Source: Microvirga puerhi (lineage in GTDB: Bacteria > Pseudomonadota > Alphaproteobacteria > Rhizobiales > Beijerinckiaceae). From it: a stretch of DNA of 64,000 nucleotides. The notes below the pieces were generated by a model. The model did not search any database and was not told the DNA's origin. It saw only the letters and a program-made list of their open reading frames with translations. The DNA is taken from positions 124,001-188,000 of the forward strand of contig NZ_JAIRBM010000004.1 in assembly GCF_020089865.1 (NCBI RefSeq). Reading direction: 5' to 3'. Position numbers and translations under genes: made by a program. Below, piece by piece: positions 28,215 through 40,976 of this stretch (position 1 is its first letter; each line of letters begins with the position of its first letter).

Positions 28215-29330
28215 TTACGGACTGAGGAGCTTGCCGGAACGGATTTCCTTGGCGCCGGCGATCTTCCCAAGTCTCTTACCGGCATGGACGAAGCGGCCCG
28301 TCGAGCGCGCGAAAAGAACGCCATCGGTGGTGGCGTGCACGAGGGTCTCTTCGCCGGAGACTGGGTCAATGAGGCGCGCAATAACGTCCCCAGCTTTGAT
28401 GGAGGCACCCACCTCCTTCTCGAATACGACGATGCCGGGACGAGGCGCCGTGAGTGCTTCGGTTCCGGCAAGCGGTGTGGGTGGTGCTGCTGGGGTCGGG
28501 ACTGTCGGAGGTGTTCCGGCGATGGCTCCGCGCAGCGTGAGGTAATTCAGGATCGCTTCGGAATCCGTCGAGGCGAGTGCATCCGATACATCCGCCCTGC
28601 CGCGCAGCTCGAGCGTCGTCGCAAGGCCCGCGAGCGGAATGGCCGCAGCGGGAAAGCGCTCCTGCAGTTGAAGCCAGGGACGGCTCACCGCCTCGTCGAA
28701 GGGATTATCGCCGGATTCGGTCGCGAGCAGCACCGCCTTTGCGCCGAGATAGGCGCCGAGCGGCGCAAAATCTTCCGCCTGCGGCGTCAGCGTGTAGAGG
28801 TGCACCGCCGCCTCGGAATCGCAGTGGATGTCGAGCACGATGTCGGCATCGATCGCCTCGTTCAGGAGCAGGTGCTTGAGATGGTCCGTCGGCGTGACGG
28901 GCTTGCGCGCGGCAAGCGCAGTCTTCAGCGCCGAGCGAATGAGCGCTACGTTCTTCTGCGAATCCGATCCGAGCTGTGAGGCGAGCACCTCCGCGACCTC
29001 GTCCGTCAATTCGGGAAAATAACGGTTGAAGTTACCCCCGTCCGACAGGTCGAAGCGGCCATGGAAGACGCCATTGACTTGCTGCGCCAGACCGATCGGA
29101 TTGGCAACCGGAATGAGCACGACCTCGCCCTTGATCCTGCCCGCATCCTCAAGGGCCGTGAGCCGTTGGCGCAGGTGATGAGCGGTCAGATGCCCCGGCG
29201 TCTCGTCGGCATGCAGTCCAGCCTGAATGTAGATCTTGGGATTTGCACCGGGCGTACCGAAGCGCAGGACGGTGAGGTCGATGGACAATCCGGACGTGCT
29301 GCCAGGGATAGAAAGTGTTTCGCGACGCAT
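28215..29330 (-). CDS. Succinylglutamate desuccinylase / aspartoacylase family (M14) deacylase
   Basis: 371 residues from ATG 29330 (MRRETLSIPG). A zinc-dependent amidohydrolase of the M14 AstE/ASPA family. The zinc site is in IQAGLHADETPG (His and Glu) and the second ligand region LDIHCDSEA. After the catalytic part (to about 290) a barrel-like C-terminal domain, APRPGIVVFEKEVGASIKAGDVIARL (over residues 300-325), resembles the DoeB/N-acyl-amino-acid deacylase class. Upstream codons to 29507 are rejected for lack of likeness. Between an Lrp regulator with arginase and an ABC pair, it probably releases acyl groups from an amino acid such as N-acyl ornithine, diaminobutyrate or glutamate. Confidence 0.88.
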   Translation of the reverse strand: MRRETLSIPGSTSGLSIDLTVLRFGTPGANPKIYIQAGLHADETPGHLTAHHLRQRLTALEDAGRIKGEVVLIPVANPIGLAQQVNGVFHGRFDLSDGGNFNRYFPELTDEVAEVLASQLGSDSQKNVALIRSALKTALAARKPVTPTDHLKHLLLNEAIDADIVLDIHCDSEAAVHLYTLTPQAEDFAPLGAYLGAKAVLLATESGDNPFDEAVSRPWLQLQERFPAAAIPLAGLATTLELRGRADVSDALASTDSEAILNYLTLRGAIAGTPPTVPTPAAPPTPLAGTEALTAPRPGIVVFEKEVGASIKAGDVIARLIDPVSGEETLVHATTDGVLFARSTGRFVHAGKRLGKIAGAKEIRSGKLLSP

Positions 29331-29506
29331 GAACGCTGCTCCGGGAGAGACCGGCCACGAGTGCCGGCGATAGAAATGCCCGCGGCCGTCATGGGCCAGC
29401 GAACGGCAGAGGAGAATGAGGGACGGTGCCCCCGACGGATTTGATCGAAGCTCGTTATCACATCTGCCGTTAGGAACGCGAGCGTGCCTCTTTCGAGTGC
29501 CCATCA

Positions 29507-29944
29507 TCAGAGGCGCGCCCGTGTACTGCGCGGGGTGGCCAGGAGCAGATTGGTCTCCGAGGCGATTACGCCCGGTATGAGCCTGACACGTCGGAGCACT
29601 GCGTCAAAATCGGTCAGGCTCGTAGTCCCCAGCTCGACCACCAGATCCCATTTTCCGTTCGTCGTGTGAATGGCACTGATCTCCGGAAAGCCTCCCAGCG
29701 CATCGACGACACGATCGGCAGCCCGCCCCTCGACCTCGATCAGCATGATCCCGCGCACAGGCAGCGACACGGCATCGGCGCGCAGAATGACTGTGTATCC
29801 GACAATATCCCCTGATCGCTCCAGCCGCTCGATGCGGGATCGGACGGTCGCACGGGATACGCCGAGCTCCAGAGCCAGATCCGACACGCTGCGGCGCCCG
29901 TTGTGGCGCAGCAGCGTGATGAGACGCTGATCGAGCTCGTCCAT
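29507..29944 (-). CDS. Lrp/AsnC family transcriptional regulator
   Basis: 145-residue regulator: N-terminal helix-turn-helix (MDELDQRLITLLRHNGRRSVSDLALELGVSRATVRSRIERLE, written over residues 1-42) and a C-terminal RAM domain with SAIHTTNGKWDLVVELGT. It is transcribed away from the arginase-ornithine cyclodeaminase operon, the classical place for the arginine-responsive activators of alphaproteobacteria (ArgR/ArcR/PutR type). It is expected to activate arginase when arginine or ornithine is present, and to repress itself. Confidence 0.93.
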   Translation of the reverse strand: MDELDQRLITLLRHNGRRSVSDLALELGVSRATVRSRIERLERSGDIVGYTVILRADAVSLPVRGIMLIEVEGRAADRVVDALGGFPEISAIHTTNGKWDLVVELGTTSLTDFDAVLRRVRLIPGVIASETNLLLATPRSTRARL

Positions 29945-29951
29945 AACTCAC

Positions 29952-29987
29952 CATTTTGAAAAGCCGAGATTATCATTTTGAGAAGCC
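29952..29987. promoter_or_regulatory. Tandem direct repeats, candidate Lrp binding site
   Basis: CATTTTGAAAAGCC (29952-29965) and CATTTTGAGAAGCC (29974-29987): 13 of 14 bases equal, starts 22 bases apart, about two helical turns, so both lie on the same DNA face. They sit eight bases upstream of the regulator's start on the other side, inside the 124-base gap to arginase. Lrp-type octamers typically wrap such phased AT-rich repeats. Function inferred. Confidence 0.6.
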
Positions 29988-30068
29988 ATTTGCACAAAAC
30001 TGTCAATCTTTATTGTTCATTTCGCCAATCCCCTTCGGTAACTTGATGACCGTTCCATGGAGAGGTGA

Positions 30069-30998
30069 ATGACGCGCAAGCCCTGTATCCTTTTAGGTGT
30101 CCCAGTGCAGGAAGGTACAGGACGCCTCGGCTGTGACATGGGCCCTAGCGCATTCCGCACGGCGGGTCTCGCAGGAGCACTGCGCGATCTCGGCTATATG
30201 GTCGAGGATCGGGGCAATCTCGCGCCAGGCCCCACCCGTGACCTCACGCACACCAACGGAGCGATCAAGTTCCTTCCGGAGATCGTTGCCTGGACCAAAA
30301 CCATCGCGCAGGCCGCTTACGAGGCAAGCGGCGAGGGTATCCCGATCTTCCTCGGGGGTGATCACAGCCTTTCCGCCGGCTCGATGACGGGCTTAAGCCG
30401 CCGGGCTGCGGAGGACGATCACCCGCTTTTCGTCCTCTGGCTCGATTCCCATCCGGATTTCCATACGCTCGACACGACGCAAAGCGGCAACCTGCACGGT
30501 GTACCCATGGCCTATGCGACCGGTCGCGGCGGTTTCGATGGCTACTTCCCGGCTAATCCCGTGCCGATACGTCCCGAGAACGTGTGCATGATGGGAATTC
30601 GCAGCGTCGACAATGCCGAGCGCGCTGCCCTTGCGACGGCCGGCGTCACCATTCACGACATGCGCGCTATCGACGAGAACGGTGTCGTCACGCTGCTCAA
30701 GGCCTTTCTGAAGCGGGTGGCCGCAGCCAATGGCCGCCTGCACGTGAGCCTCGATGTCGACTTCATCGATCCGAACATCGCGCCTGGCGTCGGCACAACA
30801 GTTCCCGGCGGAGCCACATTCCGAGAGGCTCACCTGATCATGGAGATTCTCCATGACAGCGGCCTCGTCACCAGCCTCGATCTCGTCGAGCTCAACCCTT
30901 TCCTGGACGAGCGCGGCCGTACGGCCCTGCTCATGGTGGATCTCGTGGCGAGCCTGATGGGTCGCCGGGTCCTCGACCGTCCGACGCGGAGTTTCTGA
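30069..30998 (+). CDS. rocF: Arginase
   Basis: 309-residue binuclear manganese ureohydrolase hydrolysing arginine to ornithine and urea. The ligands match the family: His99 (GGDHSLS), Asp126/His128/Asp130 in DSHPDFH, Asp229/Asp231 in SLDVDFID; the usual AHTD/DAHAD alanine is serine here. Glu274 in LVELNP is also kept. AGAGGT lies just before ATG 30069. It starts the arginase-ornithine cyclodeaminase operon (3-base gap) divergent from the Lrp regulator. Agmatinase-type use of another substrate cannot be excluded, but GCDMGP-x-AFR and the neighbours favour arginase. Confidence 0.95.
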   Translation: MTRKPCILLGVPVQEGTGRLGCDMGPSAFRTAGLAGALRDLGYMVEDRGNLAPGPTRDLTHTNGAIKFLPEIVAWTKTIAQAAYEASGEGIPIFLGGDHSLSAGSMTGLSRRAAEDDHPLFVLWLDSHPDFHTLDTTQSGNLHGVPMAYATGRGGFDGYFPANPVPIRPENVCMMGIRSVDNAERAALATAGVTIHDMRAIDENGVVTLLKAFLKRVAAANGRLHVSLDVDFIDPNIAPGVGTTVPGGATFREAHLIMEILHDSGLVTSLDLVELNPFLDERGRTALLMVDLVASLMGRRVLDRPTRSF

Positions 30999-31001
30999 AT
31001 C

Positions 31002-32060
31002 ATGATCGAAAAACTCAACGTCGTTCCGTTCGTCAGCGTCGATCACATGATGAAGCTCGTTATTGCCATCGGCGTGGAGCGCTTCCTCGTCGAGCTCGCA
31101 AACGAGATCGAAGCAGATTTCCGCCGCTGGGAGTCCTTTGACAAGACACCTCGTGTTGCCTCGCACAGCAAGGAGGGCGTGATCGAGCTCATGCCTACGA
31201 GCGATGGCGAGGTCTATGGCTTCAAGTACGTGAACGGCCATCCCAAGAATACCCGAGAGGGACGTCAGACTGTGACAGCGTTCGGCGTCTTGGCCGATGT
31301 CGGCACCGGCTATCCGGTGCTGCTTACGGAAATGACGATTCTTACGGCCTTGCGCACCGCCGCGACTTCGGCGCTCGCTGCCAAGTACCTCGCTCCGAGA
31401 GATGCGCGCACGATGGCGATGATCGGCAACGGTGCCCAGGCGGAGTTCCAAGCTCTCGCTTTCAAGGCATTGCTGGGCATCGACACACTCCGCCTTTACG
31501 ACATCGACAGGACAGCAAGCGTGAAATGCGTCCGTAATCTTGCCGGAATGGGTCTCGACATCGCTATTTGCAATTCAATCGAAGAGGCGATGGAAGGCGC
31601 ACAGATCGTCACGACGGTCACTGCCGACAAGCAGAATGCGACGATCCTCACGGACAATATGGTCGGATCGGGCATCCACATCAACGCCATCGGCGGTGAT
31701 TGTCCCGGCAAGACCGAATTGCATCCGGACATCTTGAAGCGCTCCGATATCTTCGTGGAGTATCCGCCGCAGACACGGATCGAAGGAGAAATCCAGCAGC
31801 TTTCCCCCGACCACCCGGTCGCCGAGTTGTGGCAGGTGATTGCCGGCAACGCACCGGGGCGTACAGACGCTCGGCAGATCACGCTTTTCGATTCCGTCGG
31901 CTTCGCTATCGAGGATTTCTCGGCGCTTCGCTACGTGAAGCGAGAGGTCGAGCGAACGGGTCTTTACGAAGAACTCGACCTTCTGGCCGATCCCGATGAA
32001 CCGCGCGATCTCTTCGGAATGCTTCTACGTGCCCAGGCAGCAGCTCCCTCCGCCGCCTGA
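31002..32060 (+). CDS. Ornithine cyclodeaminase
   Basis: 352-residue NAD-dependent ornithine cyclodeaminase/mu-crystallin family enzyme that turns ornithine into proline and ammonia. The Rossmann motif is MIGNGAQAEFQALAF near residue 143 (G-x-G-x-Q), and the FGVLADVGTGYPVLLTEMTILTALRT segment near 90 is family-specific; the ring-closing loop NAIGGDCPGKTEL follows. With arginase three bases upstream, it completes arginine to proline catabolism, giving nitrogen and carbon. Length is normal for the rhizobial enzyme. Confidence 0.95.
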   Translation: MIEKLNVVPFVSVDHMMKLVIAIGVERFLVELANEIEADFRRWESFDKTPRVASHSKEGVIELMPTSDGEVYGFKYVNGHPKNTREGRQTVTAFGVLADVGTGYPVLLTEMTILTALRTAATSALAAKYLAPRDARTMAMIGNGAQAEFQALAFKALLGIDTLRLYDIDRTASVKCVRNLAGMGLDIAICNSIEEAMEGAQIVTTVTADKQNATILTDNMVGSGIHINAIGGDCPGKTELHPDILKRSDIFVEYPPQTRIEGEIQQLSPDHPVAELWQVIAGNAPGRTDARQITLFDSVGFAIEDFSALRYVKREVERTGLYEELDLLADPDEPRDLFGMLLRAQAAAPSAA

Positions 32061-32144: not shown

Positions 32145-32606
32145 ATGCAAGCAGCCATCGTCGTTCGACCGATTGTCCGGGACGACAGACCGCAATGGGA
32201 ACCTCTCTGGGACGGATACAATGCGTTCTATGGTCGATCGGGGCCGACGGCGCTGGCGCCGGAGATCACCCAGACGACGTGGGAGCGCTTTTTCGACGCA
32301 TATGAGCCGGTCCATGCCCTGGTGGCGGAATGCGACAATCGAGTACTGGGCCTCGCGCATTACCTTTTCCACCGGAGCACGACGGCGATTGCACCCAGTT
32401 GCTATCTGCAGGATCTGTTTACGAGCGAAGAGGCACGAGGAAAAGGTGTCGGTCGCGCCCTGATCCAGGGTGTCTATGGCGAAGCCGCGCGGGCCGGTGC
32501 TCCCCGCGTCTATTGGCAGACCCACGAGACGAACGCCACTGCGATGCGACTCTACGATCAGGTTGCCGAGCGTTCAGGATTCCTCCTTTATCGAAAGCTT
32601 CTTTGA
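32145..32606 (+). CDS. GNAT family N-acetyltransferase
   Basis: 153-residue acetyltransferase. The fold begins at IVVRPIVRDDRPQW; the acetyl-CoA loop is FTSEEARGKGVGRALIQGVY (R-G-x-G-x-G/A), followed by WQTHETNATAMRLYDQVAERSGF. The motif pattern, with YLQDLFTSEEARGKG, fits small amino-acid or polyamine acetyltransferases. ATG 32145 is preferred over TTG 32127; GGAG lies seven bases before it. Its end overlaps the convergent Cache-HAMP gene by 33 bases. It lies 84 bases after the arginine catabolic operon and might be read with it. Confidence 0.9.
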   Translation: MQAAIVVRPIVRDDRPQWEPLWDGYNAFYGRSGPTALAPEITQTTWERFFDAYEPVHALVAECDNRVLGLAHYLFHRSTTAIAPSCYLQDLFTSEEARGKGVGRALIQGVYGEAARAGAPRVYWQTHETNATAMRLYDQVAERSGFLLYRKLL

Positions 32607-33725
32607 ATCCGCTGAAGCTACCTTTGCCGTTCGCTTTTGATAGGGGCGCATGGATTGCGTTTGAAGGCGAACGAGGGCAGCGGCGAGATCCCGCGCCTCC
32701 TCGTAACGCGTTTCCTCGTACACGGGGACGCTGGCACGACCGTTTGCGAATGCATCGGCCGAACCTACCAGTCGATTCAGCGGCACAGCGATCCATTGCG
32801 CGAAGAGATAAAGAAGAGTGAGCGTACATAAGGCGCCGATGCCCAGGATCGTCCAGAACGAGCGAAGGAGCGCACGCACAGGACCGAATACCTCATCGGC
32901 GCGCGCGCGGACGATCAAGCTCCAGCCGAAACTCGGCATATCTTGAAACTGCACACTCGGCACCACTGCGCTGACATACTGATGGCCGTCGGGCCAATGC
33001 TCGTCGAGAGCAATAGAGGTTGCTTGACCAGCCGCTATGGCCGATCCGACCGACAGGACTTTTCCTTGCAGGTCGCTCGGACCGTAGAGAACCGTGCGGT
33101 CGCGCGAGAGCAGAAGGATATCAACACCTGGCGTCGCGAGACTTCCAATGTTTTCCCGAACCCAGTTCCAGTCGAAATGGGCTCCAATCACACCAGTCAC
33201 GTCCCCGTGCGTGTTCTTGATGGGAGCGGAGAAATCGACGAAGCGCCGAGGTTCTGGCGTGGCTGGCAACAGCTTCTCCAGAAGTTTGGCATCATGCACG
33301 TCACTGGCGGATGGCCCGTTCAGGCCGCGTCGAAACCAGGGACGCTCCGCCACGCTCTGTCCCTCAAGCAATCCATTGACCGCGGCCACCACTTTGCCGT
33401 CGACGGCCGCGGCACCGATCCAGGAATAGCGCGGATCGAGCTGAGCAAGGAAAGAGAACCGACCTCTTAGCTCATCCGGAGAGGAAAGATCTGCCGTGCG
33501 AGCCATGCCATCAACGTCGCGCCAAAGGGTGTGCATCCGCCGGGCCATCTGATCGGACGCAAGTTCACCCAAAGCGCGAAGGCGATTGATGTTCACTGTC
33601 TCGACGCGCTGCTGCAGGGAACTGGCGAAAAACATGCCCGATATCAGGGCTGGCGCCAGCACAAGGATCGAGCCACCGAGGAAAATGACCACTTTTAGAT
33701 TCAATCGCATAGGCTGCTGCCTCAT
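32574..33725 (-). CDS. Cache-HAMP membrane sensor without an output domain
   Basis: 383-residue protein. Layout: cytoplasmic stub, first membrane helix (about 11-33), periplasmic double-Cache region (about 40-280: FSFLAQLDPRYSWIGAAAVDGKVVAA and WFRRGLNGPSASDVHDAK are PDC-like), second helix (about 293-313), then HAMP (IAVPLNRLVGSADAFANG, about 314-360). It ends some 25 residues later in a basic, disordered tail, so no kinase, GGDEF, methyl-accepting or other output follows. The frame is clearly closed by a stop. It starts three bases after the polysaccharide synthase stop, so it is almost certainly its operon partner. I infer a regulator that senses an outside ligand and acts on the synthase by contact. 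Confidence 0.85.
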   Translation of the reverse strand: MRQQPMRLNLKVVIFLGGSILVLAPALISGMFFASSLQQRVETVNINRLRALGELASDQMARRMHTLWRDVDGMARTADLSSPDELRGRFSFLAQLDPRYSWIGAAAVDGKVVAAVNGLLEGQSVAERPWFRRGLNGPSASDVHDAKLLEKLLPATPEPRRFVDFSAPIKNTHGDVTGVIGAHFDWNWVRENIGSLATPGVDILLLSRDRTVLYGPSDLQGKVLSVGSAIAAGQATSIALDEHWPDGHQYVSAVVPSVQFQDMPSFGWSLIVRARADEVFGPVRALLRSFWTILGIGALCTLTLLYLFAQWIAVPLNRLVGSADAFANGRASVPVYEETRYEEARDLAAALVRLQTQSMRPYQKRTAKVASADSKKLSIKEES

Positions 33726-33728
33726 TCA

Positions 33729-35699
33729 TCATCGTGACGCGAACAGACGCGCCCAACCCTTCATCATGACGGCGAGATCGCCGCGTGTCGTTCCAGGAGC
33801 AGCATCGGCCGTATAGAGCTTTCGCAGCAGAAGGGAATATTGCTGCGGTGTGGTGAGCACATCGAGAATATAGCCATCCGGCGCTGTCTCGGCGATCCGC
33901 ACTGCGACTTCGCCGACACCTTCAAGTTCAATAGTTCCTCTCTCACCGATGCTCAGCCCGGCAGGGCCACGAATGCGTGCACCGTCAACGCCGAGATCTG
34001 TGAGCCAACCGTAGAATCGATTGATGTCGACAGACAGGATCACCTGCTCAGTCGCGATCCGCTGCGGACGATTGACGCGGGGGCGTTCAATACAAGCAGC
34101 CATCGTGACTGCGAGCACGGCAAGGTTGTAGAGCGTCCAGAAGATGATGATGCGGATACCATCGCCTGCTCTGCTGACATGGCTAAAGAGGATGTCCCCA
34201 GTGAGCGGCAGAAGCAGGCCGAGAAGCGTCAGCACAAAAATGATGGCGAAGGGTCTCATAATCGGCCACTGGACGACAGCCTTGGTGCGATCACCACCTT
34301 TTGCTGTGACGCGAAACTTGTGTGGCCCCGGCGTAAACAATCCCATCCAGACAGCGCGGGTGATCGGCCAGGCCGCGAGAAGCTGCGATACATCGTTGAG
34401 AAGCGGCATGATCAGCCCGCCCGAGATCCAGTTCAAGGTAAACAGGACCGCGATGTAATAAGGCATGTAATAGGTGATGATGTCACTTACCGAGGCATTG
34501 ACGACAATGATGCCGAAGTACCAATAGAGCAGCGGACATAGCAGGCTGACGAGGCGAAAGGGAAAGGTGGTCGTCCAAAACATCAGCGAATCGAGTAGGC
34601 TGATGCGCTGCATCAGGCGCAGACGATTGGTCCCGAACGGATTATAGACGTTGCGGATGATCTCCATCATTCCAAGACACCAGCGTCCGCGCTGGACGAT
34701 GTATTCCTGCAGCCCCTCCGGCGCGAGACCTTCGGTGAGCGGCTCGTTGAGATAGACCGTCTGATATCCATGCTCGTCGAGACGAATTGTGAGAAGGAAA
34801 TCCTCCGTCACGCTTTCAGTCGGAAAGCCGCCGATCGCCTTCACTCCTTCGATGCGCACCATGGAGGAGGTACCGCAGCACACCGCAATGCCCCAGCCAT
34901 CGCGCGCCGGTTCGAGGTGATCGAAGAAGAACCGCTGCTCGTCGGGATAGGCCTGGGCGATACCGAGATTGTGCTGGATCGGGTCGGGGTTGAAAAAATG
35001 CTGCGGTGTCTGCACGAGTCCGACTCCCGGATCGTGAAACAGAGCCAATACGCGGCGAATGAAGTTCGGATGCGGCACGAAGTCGGCGTCGAGCACAGCG
35101 GCAAAGGCGGGTGGATCCGGATCCTGCAGCCGCTGGCGTAGGGTGTAATTGATATTGCCGGCCTTTGCATGATTGTTGTCGGGGCGGGTTCGATGTTCAG
35201 CGCCGTATTCCTGACATAGCTCAGTCAGCCAATCGCGCCGACCGTCGTCAAGGACGAAAACGCGCAACTTCGGATAGTCGATAGCTCGCGCACCGGACAA
35301 GGTGCGCTCCAAGACGGCCCGCTCCTCGTTGTATGTAGCAATGTAAAGATCGACCTGAGGTGGGTCGTCGCCCCACCAGCGGAGATGCGCGTCGGCTTCC
35401 GCATGCCGCTCTCGGCGCCGTGTCAGAATAAAGTAGGCTGAAGTCGAGGAAACCAAAGCCAAACCCTCGACAGTGAGGAAGATCCAACTCGCGATCGCAT
35501 CGATGTCGAAGCTGAGCGGAGGTACTGTAGCGGTGATGCGCCAGACCATGTAGCGCCATGCCAGGATCGCCGTGAGCGCCAACAAGAAGACGCGGATCCA
35601 ATCGTTGGATTTGCGTGCGAGCGGGCCGACGAGCAGGACAAGCCCCGCCACCACGGCGACGAGAGCGAAGCTCGATAAATATGTATCGAGGATCAGCAT
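33729..35699 (-). CDS. GT2 polysaccharide synthase, BgsA/CrdS-like (beta-glucan synthase)
   Basis: 656-residue processive membrane glycosyltransferase. Catalytic motifs: DDG (Asp151-Asp152), DAD (204-206), TED (298-300) and QRGRW (336-340), plus the FxVTxK gating-loop motif at 462-467 as in cellulose synthase. About seven helices, two before and five after the GT-A domain. Length and the HlyD-like upstream partner match BgsA, the c-di-GMP-activated mixed-linkage beta-glucan synthase of Sinorhizobium meliloti, or CrdS (curdlan), better than BcsA, which is longer and carries PilZ. The C-terminal 110 residues form a small domain; a PilZ-like trace (arginines at 539-547, D568-L-G-V-D-G573) lacks the usual serine. 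Start ATG 35699, one base after the HlyD stop; the extension to 35804 would run inside that gene. Confidence 0.88.
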   Translation of the reverse strand: MLILDTYLSSFALVAVVAGLVLLVGPLARKSNDWIRVFLLALTAILAWRYMVWRITATVPPLSFDIDAIASWIFLTVEGLALVSSTSAYFILTRRRERHAEADAHLRWWGDDPPQVDLYIATYNEERAVLERTLSGARAIDYPKLRVFVLDDGRRDWLTELCQEYGAEHRTRPDNNHAKAGNINYTLRQRLQDPDPPAFAAVLDADFVPHPNFIRRVLALFHDPGVGLVQTPQHFFNPDPIQHNLGIAQAYPDEQRFFFDHLEPARDGWGIAVCCGTSSMVRIEGVKAIGGFPTESVTEDFLLTIRLDEHGYQTVYLNEPLTEGLAPEGLQEYIVQRGRWCLGMMEIIRNVYNPFGTNRLRLMQRISLLDSLMFWTTTFPFRLVSLLCPLLYWYFGIIVVNASVSDIITYYMPYYIAVLFTLNWISGGLIMPLLNDVSQLLAAWPITRAVWMGLFTPGPHKFRVTAKGGDRTKAVVQWPIMRPFAIIFVLTLLGLLLPLTGDILFSHVSRAGDGIRIIIFWTLYNLAVLAVTMAACIERPRVNRPQRIATEQVILSVDINRFYGWLTDLGVDGARIRGPAGLSIGERGTIELEGVGEVAVRIAETAPDGYILDVLTTPQQYSLLLRKLYTADAAPGTTRGDLAVMMKGWARLFASR

Positions 35700-35700
35700 C

Positions 35701-36906
35701 CTACAAACCGAACCGGGCCAGCACCTCGCGGAAACTTGAGAGAGGACCGCTGGCAAAGATGACCCGCCCTGTGCGACCGATTGCGCATGAGAGATCCGGA
35801 TCACTTGTCAGGTTCGGCACATCGAGGGCGACGTCGAACCGGCTCAGATGCTCCGCACTCGGACCGATGGCGAGGGTCGCATAAAGGCCTGAGGCACCAG
35901 AGCCCCCAAGGCGTGTTATGGTGGCGTCGAAGACTCTCTGGTCCGCATTGAGACGGAACTGCGCCGGCATGCCGACTTTGAGGCGGGAATAAACGGTCTC
36001 ACTCACGCTGGCAGTCACCATGGTCGTAGAGCAATCCACAAGGCGCATCAGATCCTGACCACGATTCACATATTCTCCGCCGCTGACCAGAAAGTTCCAG
36101 ACGATGCTTGGCTGGTCGGTGTTCAATTCAGCGGATGTGAGTTTGTTGACGCGCACCCGCTCGGCAGATACCTGCTCGCTCCCTTGCCTGAGGCGCATCT
36201 CGACTTGCCGCGACTCCGCCGCCAACTCCGCCAAACGCAGGTCGAACTCGCGGATCCGCTGCGTCGACGAGGGTGCATCGTTGTAGGAATCACCGATGAA
36301 GACGCCATTCTTCGCCGCGGCAAGCTCAGTCGACAGAAAATTGTAGCGCTGCTGCGTGCCCTGGATGTCCTGTTGAGCGACATCGTAATCTGCCTTGGCC
36401 TTGTCGAGGGTGATGTTCGTCTGCAAGCCGCGGTCATTGAGGGAGATCGTCCGCTTCAAGGCACTGTCGGCCTCGCGTAGCTTGGCTGCAGCGCTTTCCT
36501 GTGCAGCCTGGGCCTCGCCGATCCGCGCTTCGATCTGTCGGACGCGACCTTCCTTATAGTCGTTTGCCTGCGCCTGCATGATCTTGCGCGCCTCGGTCAC
36601 GGCAGAAATCTGAGCCGCAATCCGTTGCCGGTCGATCTCCAGTGCGGACTGGGCACGCTCAAGGTCAATCAGGCGAGCGGTGTCAAAGCGGTCATCCGTG
36701 ATATGAGCGACGGATTCCTCAGGCGAGACATGCGCACCAATGTTGCGCACCGCGAAATTCACGACGCCCTCCACGGGGGCTCGCAGAACAGCTATGCGCG
36801 CATTGACAGTGGCATCTGCACTCGTGCCGGCCAAGTGCTCGCCAACAACAATATAAAGACCTCCAATGAGGAGGACCGCTCCAAGAAAAATACGTAAGCG
36901 CTTCAT
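35701..36906 (-). CDS. HlyD-like membrane fusion protein, BgsB-like
   Basis: 401-residue periplasmic adaptor anchored by one N-terminal helix (about 5-24). The biotinyl-lipoyl half-motifs are split around a long coiled coil: VLRAPVEGVVNFAVRNIGAHV (about 44-64) and the C-terminal SGGEYVNRGQDLMRLVDC; between them coiled coil covers about 75-175 and 215-262. It forms a one-base-gapped pair with the GT2 synthase, in the order bgsB-bgsA known in Sinorhizobium meliloti, where the partner is needed for glucan export. It would help to pass the glucan across the periplasm. It lacks an outer-membrane partner gene in this window. Confidence 0.88.
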   Translation of the reverse strand: MKRLRIFLGAVLLIGGLYIVVGEHLAGTSADATVNARIAVLRAPVEGVVNFAVRNIGAHVSPEESVAHITDDRFDTARLIDLERAQSALEIDRQRIAAQISAVTEARKIMQAQANDYKEGRVRQIEARIGEAQAAQESAAAKLREADSALKRTISLNDRGLQTNITLDKAKADYDVAQQDIQGTQQRYNFLSTELAAAKNGVFIGDSYNDAPSSTQRIREFDLRLAELAAESRQVEMRLRQGSEQVSAERVRVNKLTSAELNTDQPSIVWNFLVSGGEYVNRGQDLMRLVDCSTTMVTASVSETVYSRLKVGMPAQFRLNADQRVFDATITRLGGSGASGLYATLAIGPSAEHLSRFDVALDVPNLTSDPDLSCAIGRTGRVIFASGPLSSFREVLARFGL

Positions 36907-39566: not shown

Positions 39567-40976
39567 TTAGATGATCAGAAAGTCATTCGCTGTCATCTTC
39601 AGGCCCTTGTTGACCTGCGCAAATTGAATCGGTGCCGCACGACCAGTTCCATCCGGATCGTAGGAGATCAAGCCCGTCGATGCATTGTAGATGACGCGAT
39701 CCGAAGCATCATGCGCCTTCGTGCCTGTCCAGAACTCCGCCGGATCGAGAAAACCGGGGTTCCCGAGCGCCGTGAAGACGGCATCGTCGAGCATGATCGT
39801 GTCGTCGGCCACGTTGAAGTCGGTAATGCGGTCGACGTTCGTCGTGCCATTCGGCTTCGTATTGAACACGAAGGCATCGTCGCCGAGGCCGCCTGTGAGG
39901 GTATCGTTGCCGTCGCCGCCGATCAGCGTGTCATTGTTGTCAAGGCCGTATAAGCGATCATTGCCACTACCACCTCTCAAGACATTGGCGGCCGCATTGC
40001 CTGTGATGGTATCATTCCCCGTTCCGCCCGTCGCATTCTCGATGAGCGAGCGCGGATCGCCGTCGTAAAGAAGCGCGTTTGCGATGTTGCCCTGCGCTTT
40101 GTGACCGCTGCCGAGCTGCGCCAACTGCATCTGTGACAAGGTCGACCAAGCGCCGGGACGAAGATCAACGGAGAGATTCGTGGTGTAGTTCGACAGGTCG
40201 TAGGTATCGACTCCGCCGCCATCCCAGATCGTCTCGAAGATGCGGTCTGCGCCCGGTATTCCCTGCCCTTTCCCATTGATGAAGGTCTGTCCCGTCACAG
40301 GGTCGAACCGATAGACGGTGTTCTCATCATGAGTAGAGAAGTTTGCGCCATATAGATGCTGCAGCGCAGCGATATCGTCCATCATCAGAGACTGAGCATA
40401 ACCCCACGTCTCGTTTTCCACATACTGTCCCGCGGCGCCAACATATGACCGATACGTCATGACGGAGTATTCCATCGAGTCATGCGCATATGGCAGGGCA
40501 CCATAGACATTTGTCTCGTTGCCGTGTTTCAGACCCAGGGCGTGCCCCAGTTCATGAAGCAGGGTGTAATAGCCATAGTTGCCGAGCTGAGGCGAATCGT
40601 ACCAGCCATTCGCCGTGCCGAGCCAGGTGTCTCCAGCCTCGGCATAATCGGATGGCGTGTAGGTCCAGGCGGAGGACGGAGAAGCCGACATGGCCATGCG
40701 CAGGGTCGCATGGCTCGTGGCTGTTTCCGTTAGGGGTGTAAACGTGACGTTCGCCACGTCGGAGACGGAAGCCAGCACGACCGTTGCAGCGGCGATTTGC
40801 TGGGCGTTGAGGGCTTTAAAGCCGTTCTGCGGCTCACCCAGGCCATAAGCCTGACCATAGAAGGATGCGTTGGTTGGAAAGCTATACGTGAGGTTCTGCG
40901 TATCCCACATCAGCCCTGAGAAGAGAGCATCGATGTCCTGATTGCCGGTACGCTCGACTGGAATCGTTCCCGTCAT
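39567..40976 (-). CDS. Serralysin-type M10 metalloprotease with RTX repeats
   Basis: 469-residue extracellular zinc protease. The zinc motif HELGHALGLKH (His141, Glu142, His145, His151) and the Met-turn SVMTY (171-175; Tyr175 is the serralysin-type fifth ligand) are intact. Calcium-binding nonapeptide repeats (GGxGNDxLx type) occupy about 317-366, and the tail ends NDFLII, a type I secretion signal. There is no signal peptide. No inhibitor or type I exporter gene is next to it, unlike classical serralysin operons. The C-terminal 100 residues resemble those of the glycosidase at 60814. A short pro-region of about 20 residues is likely. Confidence 0.93.
   Translation of the reverse strand: MTGTIPVERTGNQDIDALFSGLMWDTQNLTYSFPTNASFYGQAYGLGEPQNGFKALNAQQIAAATVVLASVSDVANVTFTPLTETATSHATLRMAMSASPSSAWTYTPSDYAEAGDTWLGTANGWYDSPQLGNYGYYTLLHELGHALGLKHGNETNVYGALPYAHDSMEYSVMTYRSYVGAAGQYVENETWGYAQSLMMDDIAALQHLYGANFSTHDENTVYRFDPVTGQTFINGKGQGIPGADRIFETIWDGGGVDTYDLSNYTTNLSVDLRPGAWSTLSQMQLAQLGSGHKAQGNIANALLYDGDPRSLIENATGGTGNDTITGNAAANVLRGGSGNDRLYGLDNNDTLIGGDGNDTLTGGLGDDAFVFNTKPNGTTNVDRITDFNVADDTIMLDDAVFTALGNPGFLDPAEFWTGTKAHDASDRVIYNASTGLISYDPDGTGRAAPIQFAQVNKGLKMTANDFLII

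Follow-up and report, generated by a model that had tools for sequence, protein, structure and literature searches.

Bacterial glucan synthases are switched by intracellular cyclic di-GMP (c-di-GMP), and in BcsA a GT2 core and transmembrane (TM) channel are followed by a C-terminal PilZ-type domain. Curdlan operons (crdASC of Agrobacterium) include a third gene, crdC, which is not known to have an assigned signalling role. The bgsBA system of Sinorhizobium meliloti and Rhizobium etli makes a mixed-linkage (1,3;1,4)-beta-glucan that lichenase can cut. In its loci a HlyD-like gene precedes an overlapping or abutting GT2 gene. The C-terminal domain of the synthase (C-BgsA) requires R599 and H615 for c-di-GMP binding and R605, D608, Y633 and R656 for activity, according to PMC5567048. 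The locus described here lies in a 64,000-nucleotide stretch of Microvirga puerhi DNA (contig NZ_JAIRBM010000004.1, positions 124,001 to 188,000; hereafter the window). It also holds a HlyD-like gene and a putative GT2 synthase gene, but ends with a gene for a Cache-HAMP sensor that stops without an output domain. Its parts are as follows.

35701..36906, minus strand: HlyD-like periplasmic adaptor of 401 amino acids (Pfam HlyD_3, 1.9e-13), with a hydrophobic stretch at residues 2-30 taken as a single N-terminal membrane helix.
33729..35699, minus strand: predicted GT2 processive beta-glucan synthase of 656 amino acids (Pfam GT2 families, best 1.2e-25; also motifs and trees).
33732..34094, minus strand: C-terminal cytoplasmic PilZ-type domain of the synthase, approximately residues 536-656, with degenerate c-di-GMP motifs (motif and profile comparison).
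32574..33725, minus strand: outputless sensor of 383 amino acids, comprising TM1, a periplasmic dCache_1 domain, TM2, HAMP and a poorly conserved tail of approximately 25 residues.
32910..33593, minus strand: dCache_1 domain of the sensor, residues 45-272 (Pfam 4.2e-14; pocket conservation).
32652..32807, minus strand: HAMP region of the sensor, approximately residues 307-358 (below the Pfam cut-off; assigned on alignment and on its ratio of nonsynonymous to synonymous differences, pN/pS).
32574..32606, both strands: tail-to-tail overlap of 33 bases between the sensor gene and a GNAT acetyltransferase gene on the plus strand (approximately 32145-32606).

The gene order HlyD-like, GT2 and Cache-HAMP, as given in a preliminary description of this DNA, agrees with the coordinates and Pfam matches. 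The first two genes are separated by 1 base and the synthase and sensor genes by 3 bases, all on the minus strand. The 1-base gap is counted from the ATG at 35699, taken as the synthase start; the open reading frame list gives a GTG at 35804, within hlyD. A promoter scan of the locus returned no promoter-like sites, compared with 1.9 expected. The DD, DxD, TED, QxxRW and FxVTxK motifs were all read intact in the window synthase, which carries the motif set of a processive GT2 beta-glucan synthase. The motif definitions follow PMC6821405, where two of six synthase clades are described as functionally unknown.

The outputless Cache-HAMP gene proved to be a regular neighbour of one group of synthases. 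This group, termed clade A, is delimited on synthase sequences and includes those of Microvirga, Bradyrhizobium, Agrobacterium, Azospirillum and Rhodobacterales. Of 48 assessable clade-A loci, 47 had the sensor gene alongside the synthase (42 from the first survey and five of six later loci), compared with none of 49 loci of other GT2 synthases (20 group B, nine group C, four BgsA-type and 16 BcsA) within approximately 5-6 kb. The three-gene link is therefore widespread rather than confined to this strain, and the proposal that the third gene encodes a dedicated partner of the synthase gains support. A survey of the genus gave the same picture, with a clade-A synthase in 16 of 48 genomes and a sensor of at least 57% identity in exactly the same 16. 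Profile searches placed a HlyD-like gene close to the synthase in every full-size locus of clade A, groups B and C and the BgsA type, and in none of the 16 bcsA loci.

These counts come from surveys made with the synthase alone, covering 150 relatives, 385 genomes of the class, 397 of the order, 82 of one family and 398 of the phylum, together with a plasmid collection. The profile seeds were drawn partly from loci in which a Cache gene was already known. Neighbourhoods were scanned with adaptor, synthase and sensor profiles over open frames of at least 80 amino acids. At most 12 candidates were scored per genome for the genus sensor, eight for the 150 relatives and three for the class, order and phylum, and absences are to be read as lower bounds. 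Membership of clade A was set at a profile score above 900 bits, a value chosen after the scores had been seen and then confirmed by a tree that does not include the six later loci. Four of these six (L114-L117) were taken blind, three of them carrying the sensor, and two (L118 and L119) were known beforehand. Ten of the top 22 clade-A plasmid records were used for neighbourhoods, the duplicates L001, L003 and L004 were dropped, and L024, whose contig ends too early for a sensor call, stands outside the 48.

The position of the sensor gene varies between these loci. It lies downstream in the same direction in 20 loci (16 Microvirga, one Bradyrhizobium and three other genomes) and is convergent in 26 (Agrobacterium, Azospirillum, Allorhizobium, Jannaschia and others, with one intervening gene in Sulfitobacter), while in Limimaricola alone it lies upstream of hlyD. 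These arrangements require three changes on a 61-row synthase tree. Clade A is monophyletic, with support from the Shimodaira-Hasegawa-like approximate likelihood ratio test (SH-aLRT) of 98 in the first tree and 99/98 in the 61-row tree. The fragments L024, L047, L069 and L070 were left out of the synthase tree and the motif count, and 16 further rows were left out of the 61-row tree. Over the 39 loci shared by the synthase and sensor trees, the pairwise distances correlate at 0.91, the best of 2000 permutations reaching 0.29, and 22 of 36 splits are held in common, compared with three in the best of 1000 shuffles. The two genes are thus co-inherited. As the link outlasts rearrangement and the trees agree, the conserved unit is the synthase-sensor pair and not the operon as such.

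No further conserved neighbour was found when open frames from 27 loci were clustered, the clusters with at least three loci each being synthase, sensor, adaptor and antisense-like. The clustering is weak in this respect because its overlap filter retained the sensor in just 17 of the 27 loci. Several irregular loci were also noted. The sensor gene is split into two frames beside an intact synthase in L025 (genome G494), and the synthase is broken in L070. In L069, from the same-genus genome G006, the synthase and hlyD are interrupted and there are two sensor copies in tandem, of which the second is broken into two pieces; G006 also has a BgsA-type synthase elsewhere (L073). The Bradyrhizobium barranii plasmid pBb1S5a (L122) carries a truncated sensor copy with no synthase within 5 kb, likely a remnant.

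The architecture of the sensor is as first described, namely a periplasmic Cache domain, two membrane helices and HAMP followed by a stop. The dCache_1 match scores 53.1 bits against a cut-off of 45 and is flanked by hydrophobic stretches at residues 5-39 and approximately 286-317. HAMP at residues 307-355 falls below its Pfam cut-off (17 bits against 25, E 0.0076) in the window, but is above it in the relative L007 (30.2 bits) and is also visible in the family alignment. Several relatives score under the dCache_1 cut-off. Beyond HAMP the window sensor has approximately 25 more residues and no kinase, GGDEF or methyl-accepting part. A hidden output domain past HAMP was considered and ruled out, since the overlap with the convergent GNAT gene leaves no space for one and the linked homologues end at the same place. 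All 42 linked sensors of the alignment, from which the split L025 was left out, end 0-41 residues past the profile match including HAMP; the corresponding values are 44 residues for L115 and 53 for L114.

The closest unlinked relatives of these sensors are GGDEF cyclases and kinase-like proteins. The linked sensors have in common with such dCache-HAMP-GGDEF cyclases and dCache-HAMP-kinases both HAMP and a Cache subtype with R-x-W-F ... D-x-H, but end after HAMP where the others carry an output part. Unlinked relatives occupy open frames of at least 540 amino acids in 27 of 28 cases within the genus and at least 554 in 12 of 12 in non-genus genomes. The window genome has eight dCache_1 matches, and only this sensor lies in an open frame shorter than 527 amino acids. 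In a set of six genomes, unlinked dCache_1 frames reach at least 504 amino acids in 43 of 46 cases, judged by stop-to-stop frame length alone. The closest named relative found was Microvirga rosea, with 82% identity over the sensor. Among solved structures, the sensor matched designed SAKe proteins only (approximately 40-48 residues, E 7.6e-5 to 3.2e-3), and these were taken as chance matches.

The sensor gene is under purifying selection, the ratio of nonsynonymous to synonymous substitutions (dN/dS) being 0.05-0.16 in seven pairs, although the synonymous divergence of one of them, window-L056, is 2.6 and near saturation. HAMP is constrained (pN/pS 0.065-0.245, five pairs), with E343 invariant and L347 present in 93% of linked sequences, whereas the 14-19 codons of the tail are less constrained (0.17-1.6). 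The residues of the presumed pocket, R128, W130, F131, D142, H144 and D164, are retained in 90-100% of linked sequences. The Cache domain was also compared by eye with the published binding motifs of the amino-acid and purine subfamilies of dCache_1. The R-x-W-aromatic element matches the amino-acid motif, the remainder of which differs, and the positions before W do not match the purine motif. These motifs yielded no ligand assignment for the sensor.

The identity of the synthase differs from that first proposed, in which the HlyD-like and GT2 genes were matched to bgsBA. The window synthase shares the GT2 core and FxVTxK gating loop with BgsA, and the C-terminal cytoplasmic domains are homologous by profile comparison (97.9% probability). 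However, the two are only approximately 38% identical and the BgsA rows form their own clade (support 100), the window synthase falling within clade A; no Cache gene was found beside the synthase in any of four BgsA-type loci. At BgsA positions 599, 605, 608, 615, 633 and 656 the window protein has D, gap, gap, I, Y and L, so that only Y633 is retained and the c-di-GMP-binding residues R599 and H615 are both missing. All six residues are present in L011, L013 and L075. Identity with bgsBA was accordingly rejected.

Locus L014, which we take from its gene sizes and order to be a relative of crdASC, resembles the window in having a HlyD-like gene, a GT2 gene and, downstream in the same orientation, a third gene. 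Its synthase, however, is 37% identical, belongs to another clade and lacks PilZ motifs, and its third gene has no Cache-profile match and no Pfam Cache or HAMP, TPR alone matching weakly (E 0.051). A curdlan-type operon was therefore rejected, to the extent that L014 stands for curdlan. BcsA, with the core, channel and PilZ-type domain noted above, is approximately 31-34% identical; none of its 16 loci has a Cache neighbour, and 15 of 16 carry both PilZ motifs. Group B (Bradyrhizobium, Phyllobacterium and others) is a neighbouring synthase group, in which HlyD accompanies a GT2 protein of 40-47% identity. Eighteen group B rows form the sister clade, with L053 branching just outside, but no Cache gene was found in any of the 20 group B loci.

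The C-terminal domain of the synthase separates these groups further. Both PilZ motifs (RxxxR and [DN]x[SA]xxG) are present in all 19 group B tails and in all 13 of the Azospirillum branch of clade A, compared with none of 27 in the branch that contains the window, where the window tail reads RPRVNRPQR and DLGVDGA at the two sites. The loss is a single change on the 61-row tree. A tryptophan, new in the window branch, is conserved in 27 of 27. Pfam recognized no PilZ domain in the window tail or in L006, and L007 scored 16.5 bits against a cut-off of 22.5, whereas the one group B member scanned, L012, matched at 1.8e-12; the clade A and group B tails align with each other by profile comparison (99.6% probability). 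From the motif loss we infer that the window synthase no longer binds c-di-GMP. The earlier suggestion that the sensor supplies a second input besides c-di-GMP is thus doubtful. With both motifs lost in the window branch, it is more probable that the sensor has taken the place of c-di-GMP than that it supplements it.

It was also noted that the C-terminal domain of BgsA (L011, L013, L073 and L075) aligns with the group B PilZ-type tails (97.3%) compared with 3.3% for BcsA tails. This domain, described as novel, may therefore have a diverged PilZ fold in which R599-D608 lie on an insert.

On balance, the sensor is probably a dedicated regulatory subunit that acts on the synthase complex and to which, in the window branch, control has passed from c-di-GMP. 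The periplasmic double-Cache domain would bind a small molecule outside the inner membrane, and the change on binding would pass through TM2 to the HAMP helices, which would end near the membrane rather than drive an enzyme. The HAMP or TM helices may then act on the synthase complex, most likely at the PilZ-type domain or gating loop of the GT2 protein, and so set glucan output, whether by activation or inhibition. Direct action of this kind is the simplest proposal because the sensor has no enzyme of its own and its regular neighbours are the synthase and HlyD. The sensor gene would have joined the synthase at the base of the clade, when the PilZ motif, kept in the Azospirillum branch, still worked; the window branch would later have lost the c-di-GMP-binding motifs as control shifted to the outside ligand. 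A more specific form, in which the outside ligand gates the synthase directly through Cache-HAMP and replaces c-di-GMP throughout one large branch, the relic PilZ domain serving as a docking or relay surface, is put forward tentatively.

Several observations weigh against the role of a dedicated regulatory subunit. The clade-A locus of Pacificitalea (L116) has no sensor, and no Cache match at E<=0.001 was found on its plasmid, while Salipiger (L120) has an outputless sensor with no such synthase found on its plasmid. Convergent genes cannot share an mRNA, so that what is conserved is linkage and not co-transcription. The Cache pocket is degenerate in the alignment in Limimaricola and Sulfitobacter, and L008 has no Pfam match at all. 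The resemblance of clade A tails to the BcsA PilZ domain is weak (35.8%, compared with 95.2% for group B tails), and loss of the motifs is no proof of lost binding, because true BgsA binds c-di-GMP through other residues without PilZ motifs, according to PMC5567048. In addition, the order of gain and loss is suggestive and not statistical, since the sensor gain and the PilZ loss are each single events on the tree.

HAMP receptors function as dimers, and the sensor might instead have no contact with the synthase and form mixed Cache/HAMP dimers with a diguanylate cyclase or kinase from another part of the genome, tuning the activity of that enzyme. The material for such pairing exists, as 12 of 19 unlinked relatives hold a GGDEF motif and others look kinase-like, the window genome has a GGDEF relative at 36% identity, and more distant Cache proteins are present in all six genomes examined. 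However, no unlinked relative was found at E<=1e-8 in 12 of 20 non-genus genomes, nor at E<=1e-20 in 13 of 16 genus genomes with at most 12 candidates scored in each. The pairing with a c-di-GMP enzyme raised in the preliminary description is thus disfavoured as a general rule. Moreover, it is the synthase to which the sensor is linked in the genomes, and there would be little sense in a c-di-GMP output where the PilZ motifs of the synthase are lost. We regard such mixed dimers as unlikely.

Next in rank, and likewise rather unlikely, is a Cache protein that has lost signalling and serves with HlyD as a periplasmic structural or export subunit, HAMP and TM2 being a mere anchor. The missing output domain and the degenerate pockets of Limimaricola and Sulfitobacter would fit such a role, as would the third gene of curdlan operons, crdC, which is not known to have an assigned signalling role. 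A mere anchor accords poorly with a HAMP region under purifying selection comparable to that on Cache, with the conservation at E343 and L347, and with a pocket retained in at least nine of ten linked sequences. A LapD-like, inside-out arrangement would have HAMP moved by a cytoplasmic signal or by the synthase, with HlyD or export as the target of the periplasmic domain. The topology permits this, HlyD presumably being periplasmic beside the Cache domain, but the conserved pocket and the want of any cytoplasmic input domain past HAMP make it improbable. Chance hitch-hiking of a decayed sensor gene, for which the few broken loci (L025 in the sensor, L069 in synthase and hlyD, L070 in the synthase) might be cited, is hardly credible and was rejected, contradicted as it is by the synteny in 47 of 48 loci over three orders and three arrangements and by the low dN/dS.

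If the sensor does act as a regulatory subunit of the synthase, extracellular chemistry could set polymer synthesis without a second messenger, and HAMP would gain a target other than its own enzyme. The family also offers a natural pair, with the PilZ motif intact or lost, among bacteria that associate with plants, for example Azospirillum and Agrobacterium. A literature search, covering few subscription journals, found no description of an outputless Cache-HAMP partner of a glucan synthase.

Two Agrobacterium proteins in published data may belong to this system. Atu5089 (unknown) and Atu5091 (RcdB, 'curdlan synthesis protein') are listed in the core proteome of detergent-resistant membranes and are the only Atu5xxx entries among the 29 rows of table 2 of PMC8656257. 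By numbering and gene counts from AvhB9-11 (Atu5170-5172), Atu5089 is probably the Cache gene and Atu5091 the HlyD gene of the C58 locus, a provisional assignment. Atu5091 (rcdB) also appears among the genes affected by the PdhS2 kinase in PMC7003649.

Some further genes were noted in Rhodobacterales plasmids. A small gene in or near the cluster of L008, L009 and L010 encodes a protein that, by eye, has a signal peptide and a barrel-like sequence, the Limimaricola protein having no Pfam match; it could be an outer-membrane exit for glucan. Three Rhodobacterales plasmids (L010, L116 and L117) have a gene for a GH8 glycoside hydrolase close to the cluster, a hint that the product is beta-1,4-linked or of mixed linkage.

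Elsewhere in the window, positions 28215-32060 carry arginase and ornithine cyclodeaminase genes on the plus strand and, on the minus strand, an Lrp/AsnC regulator and a succinylglutamate desuccinylase/aspartoacylase-like gene, which together look like a cluster for arginine/ornithine catabolism. A serralysin-like M10 metallopeptidase with RTX repeats is encoded at 39567-40976.

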